Source of the DNA: a virus
IMG/VR virus record: IMGVR_UViG_3300027899_000001
Location: 186,001 to 250,000 of that record
DNA: 64,000 nucleotides
Reading direction: 5' to 3' (one strand)
Part shown: piece by piece, positions 27,301-60,500 of the stretch
How the letters are laid out: the number at the start of each line of letters is the position of its first letter
How positions within the stretch are numbered: the first letter of the stretch is position 1
Program-made: the position numbers and the translations under genes
The notes under the pieces: generated by a model
Database searches by the model: none
Seen by the model: the letters and a program-made list of their open reading frames with translations, nothing else
What the model was told of the DNA's origin: nothing

Positions 27301-30300
27301 TTAAGTTAAATCTCCAAATAATGTCCAGTTTGTTCCAGAAATTGTATATGCACTTGCTGCACCGTACAAATCTACTATTGAAGTAAAAGAATCTCTTGAA
27401 CGAATAGTTACACCGCTGCCAGGCACTATAGTTAAAACGCCAGTACCTGTATTTACAATAGTTATTTGTGCATTTGTTACAGAAGAAGGTAATATACAAC
27501 TCTTGGCACTACTTGAACTAAATTCTATTATTCTATTATTATCACTTTGAAGTACAGTATATGATGCGCCAGTTTGTAAATTAACAGAAGCTTCTAATAC
27601 TTGAGCAGTTCCTTGAATTCCTTGAGCACCTTGAACGCCTTGAACTCCTTGTGATCCAAGTATTCCTTGAATACCTTGTGCTCCATCTGAAGGACCTTGT
27701 GTTCCTTGAGTTCCTTGAACACCTTGCAATCCTCCCTGAGGACCTTGAGGGCCTTGAATACTTTGAATACCTTGAATACCTTGTGGTCCAAGTATTCCTT
27801 GTATACCTTGAATTCCAATTATTCCTTGAATTCCTTGAGCACCATCTATTCCTTGAATTCCTTGAGCACTTTGAATTCCTTGAGCACCTTGAGCTCCAAG
27901 TATTCCTTGAGAACCAGTTACTCCTTGAATTCCTTGAGAACCTTGAACTCCTTGAGTTCCTTGAGAACCTTGAATTCCTTGTACTCCATTTATACCTTGT
28001 ATACCAGCAATACCTTGTATTCCTTGTGTACCTTGTATTCCTTGTGTACCCTGAGTACCTTGTGTGCCTTGAGTACCTTGTATTCCTTGAGTTCCTTGTA
28101 TTCCTTGACGTCCTTGAGATCCTTGAGCACCTAATGTACCTTGAATTCCTTGACTGCCTTCAATTCCTTGAGAACCTGTTATACCTTGACGTCCCTGTGT
28201 TCCTTGTGTACCTTGAACTCCTTGAGTTCCTTGAACTCCTTGAATTCCTTGAGTACCTTCTAATCCTTGTGTTCCTTGACGACCTTGAATTCCTTGAGCT
28301 CCTTGAGAACCTTGAAGTCCTTGAGAACCTTGAAGTCCTTGAGAACCTTGAATTCCTTGTGTTCCTTGTGTTCCTTGACGACCTTGAATTCCTTGAGCTC
28401 CTTGAAGTCCTTGTGTTCCTTCTAATCCTTGTATACCTTGAGTACCTTGAGTACCTTGAATTCCTTGACGTCCTTGAGCTCCTTGACTACCTTGAATTCC
28501 TTGACTACCTTGAACTCCTTGAACTCCTTGAATTCCAGTTGTTCCTTGCGTTCCTGTTATTCCCTGACGTCCTTGAATTCCTTGAGTACCTTGAGTTCCT
28601 TGTATTCCTTGTGTGCCAGTTAATCCTTGAATACCCTGAGAACCTTCTATACCTTGAATACCTTGAGAACCTTCAGTTCCTTGAATACCTTGAATTCCTT
28701 CTCCTTGAATTCCTTGAATTCCTTGAGAACCTTGAATTCCTTGAGAACCTTGAATTCCTTGTGTGCCTTGAGAACCTGTTACTCCTTGAATTCCTTGTGT
28801 TCCTTGAAGTCCTTGAGCACCATCTATACCTTGAATACCTTGAACACCAGTTATTCCTTGACGTCCTTGAGATCCTTGAGCACCTTGTATTCCTTGAGAA
28901 CCACCAATTCCTTGAATTCCTTGAGCACCTTGAGCACCACTAGTTCCTTGAGATCCTTCAGGACCTTGAGCACCATCAGCACCTTGTACTCCTTGCATTC
29001 CTTCTCCTTGAATTCCTTGTACACCTTGTGTTCCTTGTATTGCTATTCCTTGTATACCTTGAACTCCTACTCCTTGAGGACCTTGAATACCTTGTGCTCC
29101 ATCTGAAGGGCCTTGCGTTCCTTGAGCACCTTGAACACCTTGCAATCCTCCTTGAGGACCTTGTGGCCCCTGTACACTTTGAATTCCTTGAATTCCTTGA
29201 ACACCATCTATACCTTGAACTCCACTTATACCTTGAATACCTTGTAATCCTGTTATTCCTTGTATTCCTTGAGTTCCTTGAGCTCCTTCTATTCCTTGAG
29301 CACCCTCTATTCCTTGAATTCCTTGAACACCATCTAAACCTTGAATACCTTGAATACCATTAATTCCTTGAATACCTTGAGCTCCTTCTATTCCTTGAGC
29401 ACCATCTATTCCTTGTATTCCTTGTATACCATCTATTCCTTGAATTCCTTGAGTTCCTTGTGTTCCTTGAATACCGTATATACCTTGAATTCCTTGTACT
29501 CCTTGAGTTCCTTGAGTTCCTTGAGTTCCCTGTGTTCCTTGTATTCCTTGAAGACCATCAGTTCCTTGAATTCCTTGAATACCATCAATACCTTGTGTTC
29601 CTTGAGTTCCCTGTGTTCCTTGAGTACCATCTATACCTTGTATTCCTTGAGTACCAGTTATACCTTGCGAACCTTGAATTCCTTGAGTACCTTGAGTTCC
29701 TTGTGTTCCTTGACTACCTTGAATACCCTGAGTACCTGTTATTCCTTGACGTCCTTGTATTCCTTGAGCACCTTGTAATCCTTGAGCTCCATCTATTCCT
29801 TGTATTCCTTGAGCTCCATCTATTCCTTGAGTTCCTTGAGTTCCAATTGTTCCTTGAGCTCCATCTATACCTTGAATTCCTTGAGTACCCGTTATTCCTT
29901 GAGTACCTTGTGTTCCTTGTGTTCCTTGAGAACCTTGAATTCCTTGTGTTCCTTGAGTTCCTTGAGCACCTTGAATTCCTTGACGTCCTTGTATTCCTTG
30001 AGCACCTTGTAATCCTTGAGCTCCATCTATTCCTTGTATTCCTTGAGTACCTGTTATTCCTTGTGAACCTTGAATTCCTTGAGCACCTTGTGTTCCTTGA
30101 AAACCCGTTATACCTTGTATTCCTTGAGTACCTTGTGTTCCTTGTGCTCCTTGAGCACCTTGAATTCCTTGAGTACCTTGAATTCCTTGAGTTCCTTGAG
30201 AACCTTGAATTCCTTGACGTCCTTGTATTCCTTGTGTACCTTGTGATCCCTGAGCTCCATCTATACCCTGAATTCCTTGAGTACCAATTATTCCTTGTGA

Positions 30301-32556
30301 ACCTTGAGTTCCTTGAATTCCTTGAGTTCCCAGCGTACCTTGAATTCCTTGTGTTCCTTGTAAACCCGTTATTCCTTGCGAACCTTGAATTCCTTGAGTA
30401 CCATCAGTTCCCTGAATACCTTGAATACCTTGTACACTAACCCCTTGTATTCCCTGAACTCCTACTCCTTGAGGACCTTGAATACCTTGCGCTCCATCTG
30501 AAGGGCCCTGCGTTCCTTGAGCACCTTGAACACCTTGTAATCCTCCCTGAGGACCCTGAGGACCTTGTATACTTTGAATTCCCTGTATTCCTTGAACTCC
30601 ATCTATACCCTGAACTCCACTTATTCCCTGAATTCCTTGAATTCCTTGAGCACCAGTTCCGGTTATTCCTTGTATTCCTTGAGCACCTATTATTCCTTGA
30701 GAACCTATTATTCCTTGAATTCCTTGACCACCTTGAATTCCCTGACTTCCTTGAGAACCTGTTATTCCTTGACGGCCTTGAGTTCCTTGAATTCCTTGGC
30801 CTCCTTGAGAACCAGTTATTCCTTGATCACCTTGAATTCCCTGACTTCCTTGAGAACCTGTTAATCCTTGTGTTCCTTGAGTACCATCTATTCCTTGAGT
30901 TCCTTGAGAACCAGTTATTCCTTGAGCACCTTGAGTTCCTTGAATTCCTTGAGCACCTTGAGAACCAGTTATACCTTGAGTTCCTTGAGAACCAATTATT
31001 CCTTGAGCACCCTGTGTTCCTTGAATTCCTTGACTTCCTTGATCGCCTTGAATTCCTTGACTTCCTTGATCACCTTGAATTCCTTGAGTTCCTTGAGAAC
31101 CATCTATTCCTTGTGTTCCTTGAGAACCTGTTATACCTTGTGTTCCTTGAGAACCTGTTATTCCTTGAGCACCCTGTGTTCCTTGAATTCCTTGAGAACC
31201 TGTTATGCCTTGTGTTCCTTGAGAACCTGTTATACCTTGACGACCTTGAGTTCCTTGAATTCCCTGACTTCCTTGATCACCTTGAATTCCTTGACTTCCT
31301 TGATCACCTTGAATTCCTTGACTTCCTTGATCACCTTGTATTCCTTGACTTCCTTGAGAACCCGTTATGCCTTGAGTTCCTTGAGAACCTGTTATTCCTT
31401 GAGGACCTTGAGAACCTTGAATTCCTTGAGAACCTTGAATTCCCTGAGTTCCTTGAGAACCTGTTATTCCTTGACGACCCTGAGTTCCTTGAATTCCTTG
31501 AAGTCCTTGATCACCTTGAATTCCCTGACTTCCTTGAGAACCTGTTATTCCTTGAGGACCTTGAGATCCTTGAATTCCTTGAGAACCTTGAATTCCTTGA
31601 ATTCCCTGATTTCCTTGAACACCTTGAACACCTTGACGACCCTGAATTCCTTGAACTCCTTGAGTTCCTTGAACTCCTTGAACTCCAGAAGAACCAATTG
31701 ATCCTATTGTTCCTTGAATTCCTTGAACACCTTGTGTTCCTTGTATTCCTTGACGTCCCTGTACACCTTGTACACCTTGAATTCCTTGTGCACCAATTGA
31801 TCCTTGAGTACCTTGACGACCTTGAGCACCTTGTGTTCCTTGAGCACCCTGAATTCCTTGACGTCCTTGAACTCCTTGAGTTCCTTGAGGACCACTTGGA
31901 CCTTGTGCACCTGATATTCCACTGCCACCTCCACCGCCGCTTTCATTTAATCCATATTTATATGTTATCCATGAAGAACCCCATGAAGGATCATATTCAA
32001 TTGCTATAAATTCAACATATGCAAATCCTGCTTCACTTGTATCAACTACAAACGTTGATCCAGTAGAAATATCTAATAAAATTGTAAAAGGATTAGTACC
32101 AACTAAAGAACTATCAAAATAAATACCTACAACCTGAGATAAATTATCATTTTTTAATTGAATAGGAGAAGCATTAGTAATTCTGTAATATGCTTTATTA
32201 ACATCTATCTGTTTATATGATGGATTTTCATATGGCCAATTATCTCCTGCTGTACATGCATCTCTGCCAATTGTTATATCATCGATATACATTCTATAAT
32301 AATTATAATCAGCAATATTACTATTATCATATAAATTAGTATATTGATTTTTTACAACTAAATTATCAACGATTGCTGTTACAAATTCTCCAGTAGCTCC
32401 TTTTACTCGTCCCGTTGTATTAATAGGAACAACAACTACTCCAGAAGATTCATTGTAAATAAGATCCAAATAACGTTTAAATGCCTGATTATTATAATTA
32501 TAGATAGCAGGAAACTCAGGTATGAACGTAGACAGATATACATTTTTTAAATCCAT
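27301..32556 (-). CDS. Collagen-like fibre protein (1751 aa)
   Basis: Residues 1-203 form a globular N-terminal domain, probably the attachment site. A Gly5-Ser-Gly hinge (about 204-210) leads into some 1435 residues of Gly-X-Y triplets (to about residue 1648), then a 100-residue C-terminal domain ending SGTNWTLFGDLT. The Y position is nearly always Gln, X is mostly Ile, Thr, Ala or Ser, and Pro is rare. Three non-collagenous interruptions with GPSDGAQG divide the triple-helical region into blocks of about 1.4 kb. The C-terminal domain resembles short beta caps that end many phage collagen-like or appendage proteins. It is the first gene of the minus-strand fibre region and sits directly upstream of the 5002-aa adhesin. 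Structural role is confident; location on the virion is inferred. Confidence 0.85.
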   Translation of the reverse strand: MDLKNVYLSTFIPEFPAIYNYNNQAFKRYLDLIYNESSGVVVVPINTTGRVKGATGEFVTAIVDNLVVKNQYTNLYDNSNIADYNYYRMYIDDITIGRDACTAGDNWPYENPSYKQIDVNKAYYRITNASPIQLKNDNLSQVVGIYFDSSLVGTNPFTILLDISTGSTFVVDTSEAGFAYVEFIAIEYDPSWGSSWITYKYGLNESGGGGGSGISGAQGPSGPQGTQGVQGRQGIQGAQGTQGAQGRQGTQGSIGAQGIQGVQGVQGRQGIQGTQGVQGIQGTIGSIGSSGVQGVQGTQGVQGIQGRQGVQGVQGNQGIQGIQGSQGIQGSQGPQGITGSQGSQGIQGDQGLQGIQGTQGRQGITGSQGTQGIQGSQGIQGSQGPQGITGSQGTQGITGSQGSQGIQGDQGSQGIQGDQGSQGIQGDQGSQGIQGTQGRQGITGSQGTQGITGSQGIQGTQGAQGITGSQGTQGITGSQGTQGIDGSQGTQGIQGDQGSQGIQGDQGSQGIQGTQGAQGIIGSQGTQGITGSQGAQGIQGTQGAQGITGSQGTQGIDGTQGTQGLTGSQGSQGIQGDQGITGSQGGQGIQGTQGRQGITGSQGSQGIQGGQGIQGIIGSQGIIGAQGIQGITGTGAQGIQGIQGISGVQGIDGVQGIQGIQSIQGPQGPQGGLQGVQGAQGTQGPSDGAQGIQGPQGVGVQGIQGVSVQGIQGIQGTDGTQGIQGSQGITGLQGTQGIQGTLGTQGIQGTQGSQGIIGTQGIQGIDGAQGSQGTQGIQGRQGIQGSQGTQGIQGTQGIQGAQGAQGTQGTQGIQGITGFQGTQGAQGIQGSQGITGTQGIQGIDGAQGLQGAQGIQGRQGIQGAQGTQGTQGIQGSQGTQGTQGTQGITGTQGIQGIDGAQGTIGTQGTQGIDGAQGIQGIDGAQGLQGAQGIQGRQGITGTQGIQGSQGTQGTQGTQGIQGSQGITGTQGIQGIDGTQGTQGTQGTQGIDGIQGIQGTDGLQGIQGTQGTQGTQGTQGVQGIQGIYGIQGTQGTQGIQGIDGIQGIQGIDGAQGIEGAQGIQGINGIQGIQGLDGVQGIQGIEGAQGIEGAQGTQGIQGITGLQGIQGISGVQGIDGVQGIQGIQSVQGPQGPQGGLQGVQGAQGTQGPSDGAQGIQGPQGVGVQGIQGIAIQGTQGVQGIQGEGMQGVQGADGAQGPEGSQGTSGAQGAQGIQGIGGSQGIQGAQGSQGRQGITGVQGIQGIDGAQGLQGTQGIQGVTGSQGTQGIQGSQGIQGSQGIQGIQGEGIQGIQGTEGSQGIQGIEGSQGIQGLTGTQGIQGTQGTQGIQGRQGITGTQGTTGIQGVQGVQGSQGIQGSQGAQGRQGIQGTQGTQGIQGLEGTQGLQGAQGIQGRQGTQGTQGIQGSQGLQGSQGLQGSQGAQGIQGRQGTQGLEGTQGIQGVQGTQGVQGTQGTQGRQGITGSQGIEGSQGIQGTLGAQGSQGRQGIQGTQGIQGTQGTQGTQGTQGIQGTQGIQGIAGIQGINGVQGIQGSQGTQGVQGSQGIQGVTGSQGILGAQGAQGIQSAQGIQGIDGAQGIQGIIGIQGIQGILGPQGIQGIQSIQGPQGPQGGLQGVQGTQGTQGPSDGAQGIQGILGSQGVQGVQGAQGIQGTAQVLEASVNLQTGASYTVLQSDNNRIIEFSSSSAKSCILPSSVTNAQITIVNTGTGVLTIVPGSGVTIRSRDSFTSIVDLYGAASAYTISGTNWTLFGDLT
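27311..27315 (-). promoter_or_regulatory. Possible Shine-Dalgarno GGAGA for the 5002-aa gene
   Basis: GGAGA on the minus strand lies inside the 3' end of the collagen-like gene, 13 bases upstream of the ATG at 27297. The spacing is long for an optimal site. With the three-base intergenic gap, translational coupling to the upstream gene is equally plausible. Confidence 0.3.
27610..31925 (-). repeat. Gly-X-Gln triplet repeats with ~1.4-kb higher-order period
   Basis: Degenerate 9-bp repeats ('ccttgaatt', 'ccttgagaa' on the plus strand) encode about 478 Gly-X-Y triplets. The interruption encoding GPSDGAQG (DNA 'ctccatctga') occurs at 27681, 29097 and 30492, giving intervals of 1416 and 1395 bp. 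The last block to the glycine hinge near 31940 is about 1450 bp. The flanking QGPQGPQGGLQGVQG segment is conserved at all three sites. Confidence 0.85.
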
Positions 32557-32697: not shown

Positions 32698-33915
32698 ATG
32701 AGTGAAAAATCAATAGGCGACTTCAATTGGGATATATTTGAAGACGGGTATAATGGAAGTACTAAATTAGTTCCAAATCGATCAATCAACGGTAATAACG
32801 AAAAAAATAAATGTTTCTCTCGAGAGCCTTACGCTCAACAACTCTTCGATATCTATACTGAACAAAATTCTGAAATCATCAAAAAAGATCTAAAACCTGG
32901 CGACGTTGTACGGGTAATAGATATTTTCAATATTAAAGATTCATTTATAGATATTGAACTTGCGGGAGGATTAACAATTACAATCGATTTACTAAGAGAG
33001 AAAAAATTCATACAAGTTTTTGGATACACAAGTGCTAAACAATTTACTGACTCATTAAGAGAATATGGTGCTATACGTAATTTTCTTAATAAAGGTTTAA
33101 ACGCTTATATACTTGAAGCTAGTCCTTCAGTTAAAGTTTCATTATGGCAAGGACATCTTAAATCTGTAAGAGATGAATTCATGCAAGAAATTAATAATCC
33201 AACACAAGCATATACTGCAAAAATAGTTGAAGCAAATAAAGGAGGATTTTTTGTTGAGGTTCAAGGAATTGATGCATTTATGCCAGGTTCACTTGCTGCT
33301 CCTAATAAAATAATAGACTTTCAATCTTACATAGGAAAAGAAGTTGTAGTTATGATAGAGGATTTCTTAAAAGAAATGAATTCATTTATAGTATCTCATA
33401 AAAAATATTTGGCTCATATACTTCCAATTAAAATTCAAGAATTAAATACAAGTAAAAAATATATCGGCAATGTAACTGGATGTTCTAAATATGGTATATT
33501 TATTGAATGGGAAATATTTACAGGTTTATTACACACCTCAAAAATGGATGCAGAAACAAAAGTTCAATTTAATGCTCGTAATATTAAGCCGGGTGATCCT
33601 ATTGAATTTTTTATATCTGAAATTACAAAGGATCTTCGCATAATTCTTACGAAAGAAAGTCCAGAAGATAAGTTAAATAAAATTCAAAATTTCATAGTTA
33701 GTTCAAAAGATAAGATTGTAGAATCTTCAGTTGCAGCAGTTATGAATTTTGGAGTCATAGTTAACATAGGAGATATTAACGGATTGATTCCTATTAAGGA
33801 ATTTAAGAAAAATAAAATCATGGCAAATAACTTCGTTTCAGGAGATAAAATAAATGTAATGTTCGATGAGTTTAAAGACGAGCGTATTGTGTTCAAATTA
33901 CCATTTAAAGAATAA
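32698..33915 (+). CDS. S1-domain RNA-binding protein, ribosomal protein S1-like (405 aa)
   Basis: The translation holds about four successive S1-type OB-fold segments: about residues 65-110 (LKPGDVVRVIDIF), 170-240 (YTAKIVEANKGGFFVEVQGI then DAFMPGS), 255-325 (KYIGNVTGCSKYGIFIEWE then TGLLHTSKM) and 335-405 (ESSVAAVMNFGVIVNIGDIN then GLIPIKEF). The pattern gxV....ygxFVxl.gi.GllhxS is the S1 signature. Bacterial S1 binds A/U-rich leaders and brings mRNA to the 30S subunit. Most genes in this window have A/T-rich leaders without Shine-Dalgarno sites, so a role in favouring phage mRNA translation is plausible (inference). It stands alone between a divergent promoter region and a terminator, apart from the structural genes, so regulation is probably separate. 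Confidence 0.7.
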   Translation: MSEKSIGDFNWDIFEDGYNGSTKLVPNRSINGNNEKNKCFSREPYAQQLFDIYTEQNSEIIKKDLKPGDVVRVIDIFNIKDSFIDIELAGGLTITIDLLREKKFIQVFGYTSAKQFTDSLREYGAIRNFLNKGLNAYILEASPSVKVSLWQGHLKSVRDEFMQEINNPTQAYTAKIVEANKGGFFVEVQGIDAFMPGSLAAPNKIIDFQSYIGKEVVVMIEDFLKEMNSFIVSHKKYLAHILPIKIQELNTSKKYIGNVTGCSKYGIFIEWEIFTGLLHTSKMDAETKVQFNARNIKPGDPIEFFISEITKDLRIILTKESPEDKLNKIQNFIVSSKDKIVESSVAAVMNFGVIVNIGDINGLIPIKEFKKNKIMANNFVSGDKINVMFDEFKDERIVFKLPFKE

Positions 33916-33973: not shown

Positions 33974-35332
33974 ATGCAAGCACACTATATCAGCGAAAAA
34001 TTTACAGAAGAATCAACAGATCCAATTAGTGATCTTGGTATAGGTATAATAAATGTGAGGAAAGAGTTTAAAACAGAAGAAGAATTTCTTCCTTATCTTT
34101 ATAAAATTTCACCAATGATAATAAATATCAAAGATCCTATAGAAATAATATACGAAGGTGATAAAGACTGGATTTTAAAGCCAAGATTCTTTAATAAAAT
34201 AGAAAAATATTGTGCAAAATATATTACAATAAATGGTGAAAGAGGTGATTTTGGATTTAATCCAGGGAATTTTAAAAGATATATCTTAAAGAAAGCAAGA
34301 AAAAAAATACATGAAGCATTTCGAGAAGAATCTGATCCTACAGAAGATTTAGGAATTGGAAAAGTTCGTTGGTTTAACAAAGTAAAAGATTTTTATATAA
34401 ATCAAGTTTTTGGATATGAAGAAGATGCGGAGCTTTTCATGGAAATCGCTGATGATGAATTAGAAGAAATGTTTCAAAATCAAATAGAGCCCGATGATGC
34501 AGCAGACGAATGTTATAGTGATATTAATTTATATAACAAATGGCGTGAAATGTCGGGTATTGATGAATCTTTAAACGAAAAATTTACAGATGAATCCGAT
34601 CCTATACGTGATATGGGAATAGGCGGAGTTTTTCGTAAAAAAGATTTTCAAACTAAAGAAGAAATATTAGATTTTCTTCTATTATATATACCTAGTATTT
34701 TTAAAACAGAAGAAATTCCAGATGATATTGTATATCCTAAAGAAGCGCATCAAGGCGCATTTAAATATAAATATTGGTACGCTTTAACAGATTATTGTAA
34801 AAAATATATTACTTTAAGAAAAAAAGAAGTAATATTTGATAATCTTCTTTGTATAGATTTATGGATAAAGTTAATAAAAATGGGATATCCTAAAGTAGAA
34901 CAAACTGAAAAAAATCATGATTATGGGCGAGAAATAATAATAGAATCGTTAAACGAAAAGTTTAAAGAACAATCAGATCCTATACATGATATGGGTATTG
35001 GGTGGGATGAAAATACTATTGAAGGGTATCTTAAACTACACGGATATTCTAAAATAAATATTGATCGTAGAAAACGAGGACATATACCCGCTATTAACGT
35101 AGAATTTTCTAAAAATGATGTGAATTTTGAATTTGAGATTGTGTTAGACGATGATTGGGCGTCTTGGAGACATCAATTAGATTGGTGGGATGACAATGAT
35201 AAAAATTATGATTGTCAAACAGAGAGATGGACATTGGGAGATAAAAACGGAGAAATAGACGACGAGAAATTTATAGTGTCTATATTAAAACGAAGATTAA
35301 ATAAATATAATAAACAACATGCGCAAACCTAA
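33974..35332 (+). CDS. Tagged multi-module protein with four internal tags (452 aa)
   Basis: Four copies of the tag are present: ISEKFTEESTDPISDLGIG (about residues 6-24), IHEAFREESDPTEDLGIG (about 111-128), LNEKFTDESDPIRDMGIG (about 199-216) and LNEKFKEQSDPIHDMGIG (about 325-342). Modules 1 and 3 are paralogous to each other and to proteins encoded at 50377 and 51180 (shared pattern: F-x-T/N, a helical yL...IP.i.KT, IPDDI, a KYI segment, KMGY). Module 2 is acidic. Module 4 is a different Trp/Asp-rich sequence. Every tag contains [IL]-x-E, the T4 prohead protease consensus, so processing into four peptides is possible (inference). It overlaps the next gene by 14 bases. Biochemical function is unknown. 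Confidence 0.75.
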   Translation: MQAHYISEKFTEESTDPISDLGIGIINVRKEFKTEEEFLPYLYKISPMIINIKDPIEIIYEGDKDWILKPRFFNKIEKYCAKYITINGERGDFGFNPGNFKRYILKKARKKIHEAFREESDPTEDLGIGKVRWFNKVKDFYINQVFGYEEDAELFMEIADDELEEMFQNQIEPDDAADECYSDINLYNKWREMSGIDESLNEKFTDESDPIRDMGIGGVFRKKDFQTKEEILDFLLLYIPSIFKTEEIPDDIVYPKEAHQGAFKYKYWYALTDYCKKYITLRKKEVIFDNLLCIDLWIKLIKMGYPKVEQTEKNHDYGREIIIESLNEKFKEQSDPIHDMGIGWDENTIEGYLKLHGYSKINIDRRKRGHIPAINVEFSKNDVNFEFEIVLDDDWASWRHQLDWWDDNDKNYDCQTERWTLGDKNGEIDDEKFIVSILKRRLNKYNKQHAQT

Positions 35333-37497: not shown

Positions 37498-38871
37498 ATG
37501 AATATGAAATTAATTAGAGAAAATATAATAAACGAAAAATTTAGAGAAGAATCTGATCCTATTAAAGATATGGGTATAGGAATGAAACGTATATATTATT
37601 CTTTTGCACCTCAAGAAACTCAATATATTTTATTACTTCGTTGTGAAAAAATGTCTGAAAAATTAGAAGATTTTTTCATACGTCATTCTTTTTTTTGGTA
37701 TAATAAGAATAATGCATGGGAATCATCTTGGGCATATCCAAAAGATAGATGTATAAGAGAAGCTTCAAAAATATTTAAACAAATAGAAAAACTTAAAACT
37801 TACAAAGTTGTATTAGACAGAGACGAAGAAGTCTTTTTTACAGTTCCTGGCTATAATGTAAATGAAGGTGTAGCAGATAAATATACGAGACAAGATCCAC
37901 ATTTATCTCGTGTTCCTGTAGAACATGAAGATTTTGAAAGAGGATATGAGGAAAAAGAAGCTGAAGGAAAACAAAAAGAAGATAGAGATAAAATTGTATA
38001 TAAGGTTAGTAATCATGTATACGTAATGAAAAATCCCACTTCTTTAGAAAAATTCTCTCCCGATTCACGTGCAATTGTAAATAAAAATGGAGATTTATAT
38101 GTTACTACATATAATGTTATGACTCATGATGAAATGGCTCGAAGATTGGAAAAATTAGGAGAATTAAAATATCAAGATAAATGGTGGCAAAAATCTCCAA
38201 CAGAATTTATCACTATTCAAAGAATGTATAAAGAAAATAAATTTGTATTAGGAGAATCTAATGAAGCTATTATGTATTATGTAGATGCTAGTAGAAGAGC
38301 GATATATAATATGCCTGATACTGTTGAATCTGCTAAAAAAGCATTTATACCTTTTCTTGAAAAAGCGAAAAAAGTAAATCCTCAATATCAATTTATTGAT
38401 AAATCTTTAGATGATTTACTTTATTATGCTCCACATCCTGTTAAAGAAAGTTTAATTAATGAGCCTAAATCAATTACACAAGCAGAAAAACAGTTAGCAA
38501 AAGATAGAGAAATGCCCGGACTTAATAAAAGAATATTAAAAACTATTAAAGATAGAGGTGGTGATATCGTCAAAATTTATGCTGTTAATGCAGATTATGT
38601 AAGAGATAAAAAACCAGGATTAAATTTCGATGGATTCACAGATGGAGGACATCATTATGTAACAAGCTTACCCGGATATAAAAAATGGATACCGGAAAAT
38701 GAAATTTGGATAGATGATGTATTTATGATGAAACCGAATGATTTACGAGCAATACTACAACATGAATTTACAGAAAGAAATCTAATGAAGTATAAACATT
38801 GGTCTTATGATAAGGCTCACGATTATGCAAATAAAAAAGAATCAGAATACAGAGAAAGAGTTAAAAAATAA
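37498..38871 (+). CDS. Tagged protein with putative HExxE metallopeptidase-like C-terminus (457 aa)
   Basis: The N-terminus (MNMKLIRENIINEKFREESD and following) carries the shared tag; the second ATG at 37504 would give the more typical MKLIREN start. The middle (about 110-300) is charged and of unknown fold. Residues about 360-405 include DGGHHYVTSLPGYKKW. Near the C-terminus H422-E423-x-x-E426 is followed by H441 in YDKAHDYANKKE; HExxE plus a downstream AH is reminiscent of zinc-binding phage domains, but activity is unproven. The gene ends one base into a terminator hairpin, closing the first part of the wedge region. The tag suggests virion packaging (inference). Confidence 0.6.
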   Translation: MNMKLIRENIINEKFREESDPIKDMGIGMKRIYYSFAPQETQYILLLRCEKMSEKLEDFFIRHSFFWYNKNNAWESSWAYPKDRCIREASKIFKQIEKLKTYKVVLDRDEEVFFTVPGYNVNEGVADKYTRQDPHLSRVPVEHEDFERGYEEKEAEGKQKEDRDKIVYKVSNHVYVMKNPTSLEKFSPDSRAIVNKNGDLYVTTYNVMTHDEMARRLEKLGELKYQDKWWQKSPTEFITIQRMYKENKFVLGESNEAIMYYVDASRRAIYNMPDTVESAKKAFIPFLEKAKKVNPQYQFIDKSLDDLLYYAPHPVKESLINEPKSITQAEKQLAKDREMPGLNKRILKTIKDRGGDIVKIYAVNADYVRDKKPGLNFDGFTDGGHHYVTSLPGYKKWIPENEIWIDDVFMMKPNDLRAILQHEFTERNLMKYKHWSYDKAHDYANKKESEYRERVKK

Positions 38872-38927: not shown

Positions 38928-39290
38928 ATGATAAAGGATATTTATATACGCTCTGTAGACGATCCCAATTTTCAATACGGTGTTTTAGAACATTCAGATG
39001 CAATAGAATCAATTATCGCAAAAATAAAAATGTTATTTGGAACTCGTCCTGGACAAGTAATGGGTGATATCGCATTTGGATTAGGTATAGAAGATTTAAT
39101 TTTTGAAACACGCGTAAATAAAATTCAATTAGAAGAAAAAATAAAATCCCAATTTGATATTTATATATCAGAAACAAAAGATTTTAAAATAACGCCTACA
39201 GTTTCATTTGGACGTGCTGATGGATATGATTATGCTATTATAGATGTTTTTGTAGATGATCAAAGATTGATAGGAATATTAGTTAAATAA
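38928..39290 (+). CDS. Baseplate wedge protein, gp25-like (120 aa)
   Basis: A 120-residue protein matching the T4 gp25/GpW baseplate family in length and pattern: an N-terminal DPNFQYGVLEHSDAIESII, then GTRPGQVMGDIAFGLGIEDL with the conserved G..mgd..fG segment, and a C-terminal YAIIDVFVDDQRLIGILV beta strand pair. gp25 lies at the inner baseplate and contacts the sheath, acting in sheath assembly and contraction. It begins a transcript behind a terminator and a TATATAAAATAAA element. Its stop overlaps the next ATG by one base (TAATG). The gp6-like gene lies 1 kb downstream, as expected for wedge genes. Family call is confident; no enzymatic role is implied. Confidence 0.8.
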   Translation: MIKDIYIRSVDDPNFQYGVLEHSDAIESIIAKIKMLFGTRPGQVMGDIAFGLGIEDLIFETRVNKIQLEEKIKSQFDIYISETKDFKITPTVSFGRADGYDYAIIDVFVDDQRLIGILVK

Positions 39291-39565
39291 TGAAAGCAAA
39301 AAGAGTATTTGAAAAATTTGAAGAAGGAACTGATCCTATTGATGATATGAACATAGGAAAGGTAGTATGTCCTTATTGTAAAGGCCATGGATATACAGAT
39401 GAACACGATCCTCTTTGTTATGATCCAAGAACAGGAGAACATGATTGTTATGGATGTCCTATACAAGTTCCATATGATTATTGCAATGGAACTGGAGAAA
39501 TATTAAAAAAGGATATTGCTAGACATCAAGCAGAAGAACAAAATTGGGACGATTTGCCCTTTTAA
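39290..39565 (+). CDS. Tagged DnaJ-type zinc-finger-like protein (91 aa)
   Basis: A diverged tag, VFEKFEEGTDPIDDMNIG, occupies residues 6-23. The remainder holds Cys27-x-x-Cys30-K-G-H-G, Cys43, Cys53-x-x-Cys56 and Cys65-N-G-T-G, recalling the CxxCxGxG repeats of DnaJ zinc fingers, though the last pair has only one cysteine. It could bind zinc and unfolded or partner protein. The start overlaps the gp25-like stop by one base, so it is co-translated with a baseplate gene although it does not look structural. VFE fits the [ILV]-x-E cleavage rule. Function is inferred; no J-domain is present. Confidence 0.65.
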   Translation: MKAKRVFEKFEEGTDPIDDMNIGKVVCPYCKGHGYTDEHDPLCYDPRTGEHDCYGCPIQVPYDYCNGTGEILKKDIARHQAEEQNWDDLPF

Positions 39566-49436: not shown

Positions 49437-50060
49437 TTAAATATATTTATGAAGAGTTGCAGATCTGTTATCAATTATCTTTGAGCCCTGAATTAAAATT
49501 TTATTATCATTAATATATTCACGAATATATTTATCTGACATACCAGTGTCAAAGCATATAAAATCCCCCCATATTTCTTGAGGCATATATTCTAAAGACG
49601 TCAATTCTTTATTATGAGATATATTAAAATTATCTTTTATTATTCTTGGACAATTTTTTAAAGATAATAGCTTATTTTCAAAAAGCATTATAGATAATCC
49701 TATTTCTTTTGGTATACCTTCTAATGACGTAAGTTGATTTTTTCCAATATACAAATTAAAATCTACTTTTTTTGGAAATCCTTTAAAATTTTTTAATCCG
49801 CTTTCATACATTGATATTGTGCCGTGAATCTCATTAAATTTAATAAATTCAGGAAATTCTCCATTTGGTAAAGGTATGGCATGAAAATTTATACCTCTTG
49901 CATTAATAGTAAAATCATCATTTATAGTAGGCTCATATACATTTTTCTCATATTTTTCTAGCCATTCTTTAATTAACTTGCGAGATCCTATACCCATATC
50001 TCTTATAGGATCAGAATCTTCTCTAAATTTCTCATTTATGTGTTCTCTTACTATTTTCAT
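49437..50060 (-). CDS. Tagged leucine-rich-repeat-like protein (207 aa)
   Basis: The N-terminus contains INEKFREDSDPIRDMGIG (residues 8-25) behind MKIVREH. After a helical link, residues about 85-185 form irregular LRR-type repeats: KNQLTSLEGIPKEI, ENKLLSLKNCPRII and HNKELTSLEYMPQEI, i.e. N-x-L-xSL-x-x-x-P. Such repeats bind proteins. It is the last of five overlapping minus-strand genes and overlaps the preceding gene by four bases (ATGA). The LRR type differs from that of the giant adhesin, so it is not a fragment of it. Proposed cargo with a protein target; the target is unknown. Confidence 0.7.
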   Translation of the reverse strand: MKIVREHINEKFREDSDPIRDMGIGSRKLIKEWLEKYEKNVYEPTINDDFTINARGINFHAIPLPNGEFPEFIKFNEIHGTISMYESGLKNFKGFPKKVDFNLYIGKNQLTSLEGIPKEIGLSIMLFENKLLSLKNCPRIIKDNFNISHNKELTSLEYMPQEIWGDFICFDTGMSDKYIREYINDNKILIQGSKIIDNRSATLHKYI

Positions 50061-50386
50061 TGTATTAAATATCTTTCATTCATATCTACACGATAAACAA
50101 CATAACTATTATCATAAAAATTTACCCTTTCACCGCCATTATAACTTTCAAAACTATCTATAATACAAGAACGTTTTTTACCTCCAATAAATACACCTGT
50201 TATTTTTTTACCTTTTAAAGAATTTAAAAAATCCAACCACGAAGATAACCAAAAATTATTACCGCTTACATAATATTTAGAACGTTCTTCTTCAAAATTA
50301 ATACCTCCTATTCCCAGATCATGTATAGGATCTGATTCTTCTTTGAATAATTCATTTATATGTTCTCTTACTATCACTAATTCCAA
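50057..50386 (-). CDS. Tagged small protein of unknown function (109 aa)
   Basis: MELVIVREHINELFKEESDP and following is the tag with two extra residues before it, so the start codon may have shifted. The body (about residues 30-109) is beta-rich: KKITGVFIGGKKRSCIIDSF, then ERVNFYDNSYVVYRVDM, which resembles a small beta-barrel; no family recognised. It overlaps its upstream neighbour by ten bases and its downstream neighbour by four. INE gives a possible cleavage site after residue 12. Confidence 0.65.
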   Translation of the reverse strand: MELVIVREHINELFKEESDPIHDLGIGGINFEEERSKYYVSGNNFWLSSWLDFLNSLKGKKITGVFIGGKKRSCIIDSFESYNGGERVNFYDNSYVVYRVDMNERYLIQ

Positions 50387-51183
50387 TTTATTTTTATAGT
50401 ATATTTAAATCTACGATATCCATTTGGATAACTTTTTATAAATTCTTTAGAATGTTCTATACTTTTTATTGAATTAAAAACATTTAAATATTCAGTTTTT
50501 GGTGCGAACGCCCAACGAGATGAAAAGAGGCCAGAAGATATTTTATAACGTTGTTCTGATAAATACTCCATCATTCCAGATTCTTTTAACCAATAATCTA
50601 CATTATTTTTAAACGCAACATTATATGGAGGATATTCCACAGCAATTTGAAGATTACTTCCATCTATCTCATATTTATATAAATTTATAAAATGGTGGTC
50701 TGTCATTAAATCTGTAAACTTCTGCAGTGAATCTTCAATAGCTTTTCGTATTCCTATTCCTAAATCATATACTGGGTCAGATTCTTCTGAGAATTTTTCA
50801 TTTAGATTGCGATTCCATGTCTTATACCCCATTTTTTCTAATTTATTGAAAAGTTTTGTTATTACAAATGATGTAGTTTGGTCAAATCCTTTCATAGAAG
50901 GTATTTTAATATATTTACTAACATATTTACATAAATCTTCATATTTATCGTTATCTAAATGGTCTTGTGCTGTAAATTCTTTAAAAGACTTTGTATATAT
51001 TTTTAGAATATTATCTGGAATTTTATTAGTTTTATAAATAATAGGAATTACTTTTAATAAAAAATCTGCAGCGCCTTCTAACGTATCAAACGATCTTTCT
51101 ACATAAATACCAATTCCTAAATCACGAATAGGATCTGATTCTTCTATAAATTTCTCATTTATATGTTCTCTTACTATTTTCAT
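50377..51183 (-). CDS. Tagged two-module protein of unknown function (268 aa)
   Basis: Two tags are present: INEKFIEESDPIRDLGIG (residues 8-25) and LNEKFSEESDPVYDLGIG (about 127-144). Module 1 belongs to the IPDDI-type family (FLLKVIPIIYKTNKIPDNIL, then KYVSKYIKI, KLEKMGYK), also seen at 33974 (modules 1 and 3) and 51180. Module 2 is a different domain of about 120 residues. The layout looks like two neighbouring tagged genes fused in frame, or a precursor cut at the internal LNE. Four-base overlap with the upstream gene. Confidence 0.7.
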   Translation of the reverse strand: MKIVREHINEKFIEESDPIRDLGIGIYVERSFDTLEGAADFLLKVIPIIYKTNKIPDNILKIYTKSFKEFTAQDHLDNDKYEDLCKYVSKYIKIPSMKGFDQTTSFVITKLFNKLEKMGYKTWNRNLNEKFSEESDPVYDLGIGIRKAIEDSLQKFTDLMTDHHFINLYKYEIDGSNLQIAVEYPPYNVAFKNNVDYWLKESGMMEYLSEQRYKISSGLFSSRWAFAPKTEYLNVFNSIKSIEHSKEFIKSYPNGYRRFKYTIKINWN

Positions 51184-51524
51184 CTTTCAAATCCCATCTT
51201 TTTAAATCTCTCCATTAATAGCTCTGGCCAATAATATACTCTACATGCCTGCTCTCCTGTAGAAATTCCTTCAAACGAAATATATTCTGTTAAAAATTTT
51301 TGTATAATTAAAAAATATGTATGATTTATAGCTCCACCATATCTTAAAATATCATCAGGAATTTTTGATGTTTTTAAAAGTTGCGGAATAATAGTTATTA
51401 AATAATCTAAAAATTTGTCTACATTTACAAAATCTCGATGCGCATATAATCCAATATTCATATCTCTTATGGGATCCGATTCTTCTTTGAATGCTTCATA
51501 TATATGTTCTCTAACTAATTTCAT
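51180..51524 (-). CDS. Tagged protein of the IPDDI-type family (114 aa)
   Basis: The tag IYEAFKEESDPIRDMNIG is at residues 8-25. The body has the same pattern as modules in the neighbouring gene and at 33974: HRDFVNVDKFLDYLITIIPQ, LLKTSKIPDDILRYG, FLTEYISFEG and FKKMGFER. This single-module form defines the family as about 90 residues after the tag. Mostly helical, no catalytic motif evident. Its ATG overlaps the stop of the repaired frame of the upstream gene (ATGA), and its own stop overlaps the next ATG by four bases. Confidence 0.7.
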   Translation of the reverse strand: MKLVREHIYEAFKEESDPIRDMNIGLYAHRDFVNVDKFLDYLITIIPQLLKTSKIPDDILRYGGAINHTYFLIIQKFLTEYISFEGISTGEQACRVYYWPELLMERFKKMGFER

Positions 51525-51990
51525 GCCGAATGTTCTCCCATTATGATAGTAAAATATTCAATTACACTGGGTTTTATTTTAAAAATTACTTCTGAACAAT
51601 TAAATTCAGTAGGAGGTGCACTAGACGAATTTGATTTAATATCTACCTCGTCTTCCATAAAATACAAAATGCCAGCATGTTTTAAAAGATTTTTAGAATA
51701 CTCAATTTTATTTAAAGGTTTTCCATCAAGAGTTTTAAATAAATTAGAATATGTAAGAACTCTTAATTGTTCGTTGGCTAAATCTATAATTAAACCTCTT
51801 ATATTTTTTTATCACTTATATGCCAATTATTATTCATAGTAGATAGATATTCAAATTTGAAAGTGGTATCATATTTTATTATATCTTCAGGAGATTTTTC
51901 TATATTTTTTACAATGCCAATGCCTAAATCATGAACAGGATCTGATTCTTCTCTGAATTTCTCGTTAATATGTTCTCGTACTATTTTCAT
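51521..51990 (-). pseudogene. Tagged gene split by a frameshift in an A7 run (156 codons if repaired)
   Basis: The tag frame starts at 51990 (MKIVREHINEKFREESDPVH and following) and stops at 51799 after WHISDKKI. In the -1 frame there is no stop from 51808 down to 51521, and the sequence (RGLIIDLANEQLRVLTYSNL and following, ending IIMGEHSA) is a plausible protein. The frames meet at a T7 run on the plus strand (51804-51810, A7 in the mRNA); A8 would restore one 156-residue protein. The restored stop (51523-51521) overlaps the next ATG by four bases, like the other cassette genes. It may be a mutation, an assembly error, or a programmed slip on the A-run. Confidence 0.75.
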
Positions 51991-59453: not shown

Positions 59454-60500
59454 TTAAAATAATTCATATTTTTTTAATAAGTCATAAACTCTTATTCTTC
59501 TACGTTGTTGAGACCATTTTTTCAATAACATTTTTAAAAGACTATTTACTTTTGCGCCTTTTTCTACTAAAAATTCTATCATTTTCAAATCTCCTCTGTC
59601 ACAAGCACTAGTTAATGCAGCATCTAAAATTTCTTTATCTATATCTATATTATCTAACAGATATTGTATAACATTTTTATGTCCAGCATTAACTGCTACT
59701 AAAAATAAATCTCTATTATATCCAATGCCAGTATTTGCGCCATTGTTAATTAAATATTCTAACATAGGTATATTGTCATATACCGTTGTATTTCTAAGTA
59801 TACAAGGATTTGCATTTACATTTGCTCCTGCTTCAACTAACATTTTAACTATTTCAAAGTTATTATAATTTACTGCTGTTTCTAAATAATCACCATAATT
59901 ATAATTTAAATTAGGAACTTTTGGTATAAGATATTTAACGAATTCTATTTTATTATCTACAATACTTTGTCTTAATCTTGAGCGAATATCATTAAAATAT
60001 AAAGGATATAATTTATCTCTAAAATAATCATCCATTATTCTTTCAATTCCAATACCCATATCATGAACTGGATCTGATTCTTCTTTAAATTTTTCATTTA
60101 CTGACGTATTTGGCGAAATGTTTGTATGATATTTACTATTTAATAATTTAATAACTTGTTCAACCATATCTATTACTTTAATATTTTCCCATTCATGACT
60201 ATATGCGTTTTCAGTATGTTCGAATGCATTTTTAAATGCTATATTATCATTTGCGTTAATTGTCAGTTCTTTTAAAGTAAAATAAAGAAGCATAACACAT
60301 ATAGTTTTTTCAGCATCTGTTTTCTTTTTATCTCGAAAATTTTTATTATAGAACGTTGTTGTACTTATAGGCCCCATTCTTTTTATTTCCTCTTTCCATA
60401 AATTTTGTAAATAAGGACGGCCTATACCCAAATCTTTTATTGGATCAGATTGATCAGAAAACTTTTCATTTAACCATTTTCTATATGCGTAGAATTTCAT
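59454..60500 (-). CDS. Tagged ankyrin-repeat protein with internal second tag (348 aa)
   Basis: The first tag LNEKFSDQSDPIKDLGIG follows leader MKFYAYRKW; a second, VNEKFKEESDPVHDMGIG, lies near residues 136-153. Between them is a module of about 105 residues (CVMLLYFTLKELTINANDN and following). After the second tag, about five ankyrin repeats follow (NFEIVKMLVEAGANVN, NIPMLEYLINNGANTG, HKNVIQYLLDNIDID, DLKMIEFLVEKGAKVN), and the end RRRIRVYDLLKKYELF is paralogous to the 233-aa gene. It looks like a tagged gene fused to a tagged ankyrin gene. Overlaps the preceding structural gene by four bases (ATGA). Confidence 0.8.
   Translation of the reverse strand: MKFYAYRKWLNEKFSDQSDPIKDLGIGRPYLQNLWKEEIKRMGPISTTTFYNKNFRDKKKTDAEKTICVMLLYFTLKELTINANDNIAFKNAFEHTENAYSHEWENIKVIDMVEQVIKLLNSKYHTNISPNTSVNEKFKEESDPVHDMGIGIERIMDDYFRDKLYPLYFNDIRSRLRQSIVDNKIEFVKYLIPKVPNLNYNYGDYLETAVNYNNFEIVKMLVEAGANVNANPCILRNTTVYDNIPMLEYLINNGANTGIGYNRDLFLVAVNAGHKNVIQYLLDNIDIDKEILDAALTSACDRGDLKMIEFLVEKGAKVNSLLKMLLKKWSQQRRRIRVYDLLKKYELF

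Follow-up and report, generated by a model that had tools for sequence, protein, structure and literature searches.

The ORF at positions 33974-35332 of the window (the whole 64,000-nucleotide stretch analysed here, positions 186001-250000 of a 405,016-base virus record) is quite probably a head-cargo polyprotein, which the prohead protease of the phage would cut at the joints between four tagged modules; this reading is drawn from sequence comparison. The ORF is one among many fusions carrying 2 to 8 tags. On balance it also seems likely that cargo polyproteins with up to eight tagged modules, all of which would be released by the prohead protease at maturation, are typical of a clade of giant phages related to T4.

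The original prediction described a 452-aa protein with four tags, and this was borne out by an ATG-start ORF lying exactly at 33974-35332 on the plus strand and carrying ISE, IHE, LNE and LNE. The tag glutamates are residues 8, 114, 202 and 328, giving spacings of 106, 88 and 126 residues; the last two are as predicted, while the first had been put at 105. The computed mass of the chain is 54.0 kDa rather than the 52 kDa given for the intact protein. Tag 1 (33974-34045) is N-terminal and reads MQAHYISE/KFTEESTDPISDLGIG, where the slash marks the putative cut, here after E8; its leader has 8 residues and belongs to the MRAKFINE class. Behind it stands module 1 (34046-34306), a paralogue of module 3, with a predicted product of residues 9-114 (12.6 kDa, pI 8.9). 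The three internal tags carry IHE (tag 2) or LNE (tags 3 and 4), which is how they had been described. Tag 2 (34307-34360) reads IHE/AFREESDPTEDLGIG, with a putative cut after E114, and leads into module 2 (34361-34570), which matches the opening module of an L055 ORF with two tags (51% identity) and has a predicted product of residues 115-202 (10.4 kDa). Tag 3 (34571-34624; LNE/KFTDESDPIRDMGIG, putative cut after E202) and tag 4 (34949-35002; LNE/KFKEQSDPIHDMGIG, putative cut after E328) each have an additional IxE four residues upstream of the tag glutamate, namely IDE198 and IIE324. Module 3 (34625-34948; predicted product of residues 203-328, 15.1 kDa) has its best match, at 39% identity, in a stand-alone tagged protein in L076. 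For module 4 (35003-35329; predicted product of residues 329-452, 14.9 kDa), an independent homologue was searched and none was found. Neither the ORF nor its module family had a Pfam, PHROG or PDB match, and a phage collection searched with the ORF, the consensus tag and a tagged protein of a sister clade gave zero matches. Immediately upstream lies a gene for a 405-aa protein with S1 RNA-binding domains (32698-33915, plus strand), preceded by one for a 1751-aa collagen-like protein of GxQG-type triplets (27301-32556, minus strand).

A DNA pattern for DPIxDMGIG matched 83 stretches in viral contigs, and these stretches, together with stretches of the phage's own genome, were used to build a 21-column tag profile with a threshold of 12 bits. 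In related loci 413 tags exceeded 12 bits, compared to 0 in reversed protein sequences; the tags are far beyond chance. Once duplicates were removed there were 223 unique tagged ORFs, 60 of them with 2-8 tags, and the largest number, eight, was found in a 918-aa ORF. The phage's own 405 kb record carries at least 86 tags on at least 62 ORFs, at least 15 of which are multi-tag. The consensus tag is MK[LI]V[RK]E[HY]INE/KFxEESDPIxDMGIG, with MKLVREHINE as the commonest N-terminal leader form and MRAKFINE/ as a second leader class. Among the N-terminal tags, [ILVM]xE was present in 181 of 182; the E is residue 10 in 84 of them and residue 8 in 53. The median module pI is 8.8, and ankyrin repeats are the only known domain that recurs (29 of 145 tagged proteins). 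The window holds two further multi-tag ORFs, both on the minus strand and with two tags each. The 268-aa ORF at 50377-51183 belongs to a tandem array of tagged ORFs and overlaps its array neighbour by 4 nt at 51180-51183; the other, of 348 aa, is at 59454-60500. The array itself (49437-51990, minus strand) consists of five tagged ORFs, one of them two-tagged, with several 4-nt overlaps. For comparison, two single-tag ORFs lie on the plus strand, one of 457 aa near the subject ORF (37498-38871) and one of 91 aa with CxxC pairs (39290-39565).

Sequence comparison indicates that the four-tag ORF arose by in-frame fusion of tandem single-tag genes, since modules 1 and 3 are paralogous (31% identity, E 4e-7) and their family includes stand-alone tagged proteins. 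Modules 2 and 4 showed no relation to modules 1 and 3 at the thresholds used, in keeping with the prediction of a different or paralogous module behind each tag. The family of modules 1 and 3, in which only direct matches were counted, has 44 homologues, and 13 of them are stand-alone single-tag proteins; these are the separate-gene modules that the prediction had proposed to look for in related phages. A single-linkage cluster of 135 modules was dropped as a family definition because it mixes ankyrin and other modules. In all 48 judgeable occurrences a family member had its own tag just upstream, a count that is biased towards tagged modules because tags were the means of retrieving the loci. 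Neighbouring single-tag genes in tight arrays overlapped by 4 nt in 58 pairs and by 1 nt in 19 pairs, and one adjacent module pair forms a single ORF in L088 but two in L101, which overlap by 1 nt (TAATG). Orthologous pairs of this kind are scarce, with moderate identities of 27-41%, and we place little weight on them. Internal translation starts were also considered and rejected, as Met is not enriched before the internal tags. The original prediction had offered fused genes or a processed precursor as alternatives. Fusion stands, processing at the joints is favoured by the sequences, and the choice between the two falls away.

The comparison with T4 leaders bears on how the joints may be used. 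The leader MKLVREHINE resembles that of T4 IPI, IPII, IPIII and Alt: against MKTYQEFIAE of IPIII and IPII it has equal length and matching positions 1, 2, 6, 8 and 10, including I8 and E10. In the T4 IPIII leader, residues 4 and 7 serve targeting, while residues 8 and 10 serve processing (PMC9026906). At P4, the equivalent of residue 7, F/Y/H/W fell from 74% in N-terminal tags to 13% in internal tags, compared to a background of 15% (Fisher p 9e-25), and V at residue 4 fell from 49% to 8%, while P3 and P1 were each retained in 100% of internal tags. The information content of internal tags was at background upstream of P7 and high at P3, at P1 and downstream. Internal tags thus appear to drop the T4-type targeting positions and to retain the processing positions, which is expected if the N-terminal leader targets the chain and the joints are only cut. 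Internal tags lacking the E, which would have spoken against the prediction, were sought among homologues and none was found: using a profile without P3 and P1, so that the site residues were not presupposed, all 118 internal tags showed [ILVM]xE (in 3 it lay within a small indel, in the other 115 at the exact column), and a second count gave 107 of 107. Two observations count against cutting. At P3 of the internal tags V was the commonest residue (35%), which is wider than the L/I of the L/I-x-E motif described for T4 gp21. Depletion of [ILV]NE inside the modules would have added support, yet 31 sites were seen against 32.4 expected.

The phage encodes a candidate enzyme for such cuts. An S77 protease (PF03420, E 2e-17) was detected in G000 at 308590-309006, retaining the T4 gp21 motifs LGEL[ND]HP and SSR around T4 His85 and Ser140. 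A single 781-aa ORF (L111 9659-12004, minus strand) combines the gp21-like prohead protease with a long scaffold-like region, whereas genes 21 and 22 are separate in T4. This ORF contains 10 [ILV]NE sites versus 1.2 expected, and tag genes sit immediately upstream of it. In the capsid protein, HALNE/AAMGG aligns where T4 gp23 has FLTE/AEIGG; the site is ALNE or SINE in 14 of the 15 relatives with this region, and in the fifteenth (L118) ALNE is likewise present, followed by a gap of one residue. The P3-P1 tripeptide of the tags matches this inferred capsid-protein cleavage site. As every joint carries a capsid-type cutting site, cleavage of the chain probably yields separate proteins during head maturation.

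Several other genes were observed in this context. A second gp23-like ORF of 308 aa (L112 2305-3231, plus strand) lies among glycosyltransferase-like genes at a distance of about 25 kb from the main capsid gene, and may be a remnant or a protein of vertex type. An island of glycosyltransferase-like and methyltransferase-like ORFs (L111 616-7271, plus strand) adjoins the head genes, and a 145-aa relative of the collagen-like protein adjoins the capsid gene (L111 7274-7711, minus strand).

A sister clade, with a capsid protein 77-79% identical (L115, L122), has a different tag, [ILV]xE-S-x-NFERGxDPKxAMxIG, in which E lies nine residues before D, compared to seven in the main tag. The NFERGxDPKxAMxIG tag is found on many ORFs, multi-tag ORFs included (L133, L137-L176). 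Its internal copies keep E in 24 of 25 cases and have ILVM at P3 in 84%.

Conservation of E by itself is no proof of cutting. Four independent lines, namely conservation, separation of functions, the protease and the sister clade, point towards cut joints, and this evidence, indirect yet consistent, favours cleavage there. According to the proposed mechanism, the short N-terminal capsid targeting signal (CTS) of T4 type would bring the entire chain into the prohead core. At maturation the gp21-type (S77) protease would cut after the E of the N-terminal and of every internal tag, yielding four separate proteins of 10-15 kDa, each with a KFxEESDPIxDMGIG remnant at its start followed by one module. 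Packaging, cleavage and ejection into the host are inferred here.

Conservation extends over nearly the whole tag rather than P3 and P1 alone, and the tag must therefore have some additional function. We take it that the part downstream of the cut remains attached to every mature product, where it would bind a common partner. This conserved part could instead explain the retention of internal tags without any cutting. Such an uncut multi-module protein, cut at most at the N-terminal tag, would be a multivalent chain with the internal tags as repeated docking motifs for a common partner (scaffold, DNA or head lining). Downstream of E the tag is as conserved at internal as at N-terminal positions, a degree of conservation beyond the needs of a bare cut site, and all modules have remained linked to tags. 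We nevertheless consider an uncut chain unlikely. Exactly P3 and P1 are retained while the upstream targeting residues are lost, and this holds for two tag types with different spacing; moreover, the tripeptide is that of the inferred capsid-protein site, and T4 core proteases cut wherever core proteins expose [IL]xE (PMC9026906).

It is less plausible still that the tags are unrelated to the head, serving for example as a recruitment or stability signal in the infected cell, with an accidental likeness to a CTS. The numerous ankyrin-repeat proteins could act in the cytoplasm, and the tagged genes are scattered over the genome rather than limited to the head cluster. However, T4 internal proteins are also dispersed, ipIII and ipII adjoining e and denV; the 10-residue length and the P3 and P1 positions equal those of the T4 internal-protein leader, and tag genes stand just upstream of the protease-scaffold gene. 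The chance that an assembly or sequencing error joined separate genes in one frame is negligible even for a metagenome-derived record, given 60 unique multi-tag ORFs across many independent contigs and samples, an identical copy of the subject ORF in a second record (though apparently from the same virus population), and three separate joints that would all need to be wrong.

Structure prediction agrees with a chain of separate units at module 3, which is modelled as a confident bead between low-confidence tags. An AlphaFold2 model of tag 3, module 3 and tag 4, based on 43 sequences, gave a compact alpha-beta module with pLDDT >90 over most of its length and about 60-68 for the flanking tags. 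In the full-length model, module 3 was again >90, module 1 mostly 70-88 and the tags flanking module 3 37-65; modules 2 and 4 were poorly determined, and alignment depth was unhelpful there. The module 3 fold was compared with the PDB and BFVD by Foldseek and then by VIA-align, and the best hit (Z 4.1 over 57 residues) was unconvincing.

T4 internal proteins (IPs) are poorly conserved and are ejected into the cell. The tagged proteins resemble them as small, often basic and varied proteins behind a leader, in a phage that encodes a gp21-type protease. For the subject ORF, homology to the IPs or Alt beyond the leader was not detected in Pfam, PHROG or the phage collection, an absence that says little for such poorly conserved proteins. 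T4 IPs are single proteins without leader repeats and share nothing past the cut, whereas here a 15-residue remnant is conserved after the cut site, a single genome has at least 62 ORFs with tags, and a quarter of tagged ORFs have internal copies. According to the original prediction, cutting of T4 internal proteins is restricted to the region near the N-terminus, so that internal cutting would be new. This is right for the IPs and not for T4 overall: Alt is cut at its C-terminus too, and gp21 cuts gp22, gp67 and a further small core protein into multiple fragments (PMC9026906), so multi-site cutting by this protease was already known. In its annotation, T4 gp67 is a 'precursor to internal peptides'. 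Like the four-tag ORF, the T4 core proteins gp22, gp67 and gp68 have several internal [IL]xE sites, which gp21 cuts in T4; their products are scaffold debris or short peptides that mostly leave the head, whereas a folded module with its own tag would result here.

Giant phages of the SPN3US/phiKZ type also have many ejection proteins matured by a prohead protease (gp245, with A-X-E as its motif). In SPN3US, several cut sites lie in the gp53 propeptide, and 13 of 14 mapped sites serve to take off N-terminal propeptides, some by multiple cuts (PMC10052503). A cargo polyprotein is unreported for SPN3US, and its A-X-E motif differs from the [ILVM]xE found here. Polyvalent proteins carry several domains per polypeptide and have been proposed to be injected and sometimes proteolytically released (Iyer et al. 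2017; PMC5512222). Those of phages and conjugative elements have their own metallopeptidase domains and lack a repeated tag, whereas here a recurring leader-like motif that fits the head protease makes up the joints; the subject ORF has zero Pfam domains, and only ankyrin recurs in the 145 tagged proteins.

The usual view of tailed phages is that each gene gives one mature head protein. A literature search on phage head polyproteins, with most subscription journals outside its reach, returned no earlier description, and a precursor for several folded cargo proteins that each bear a tag copy of their own would be new. If this is true, it would resemble the polyprotein of a eukaryotic virus, yet be confined to the prohead. 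A repeated protease-matched tag would then allow one gene with a single targeting signal to load many different small proteins into the head in fixed ratios, which would explain the dozens of cargo proteins in a 400-kb phage. The natural variation in the tags separates the targeting from the processing positions of a capsid targeting sequence, and the two tag types provide a sequence handle to predict the injected proteins of uncultured giant phages.
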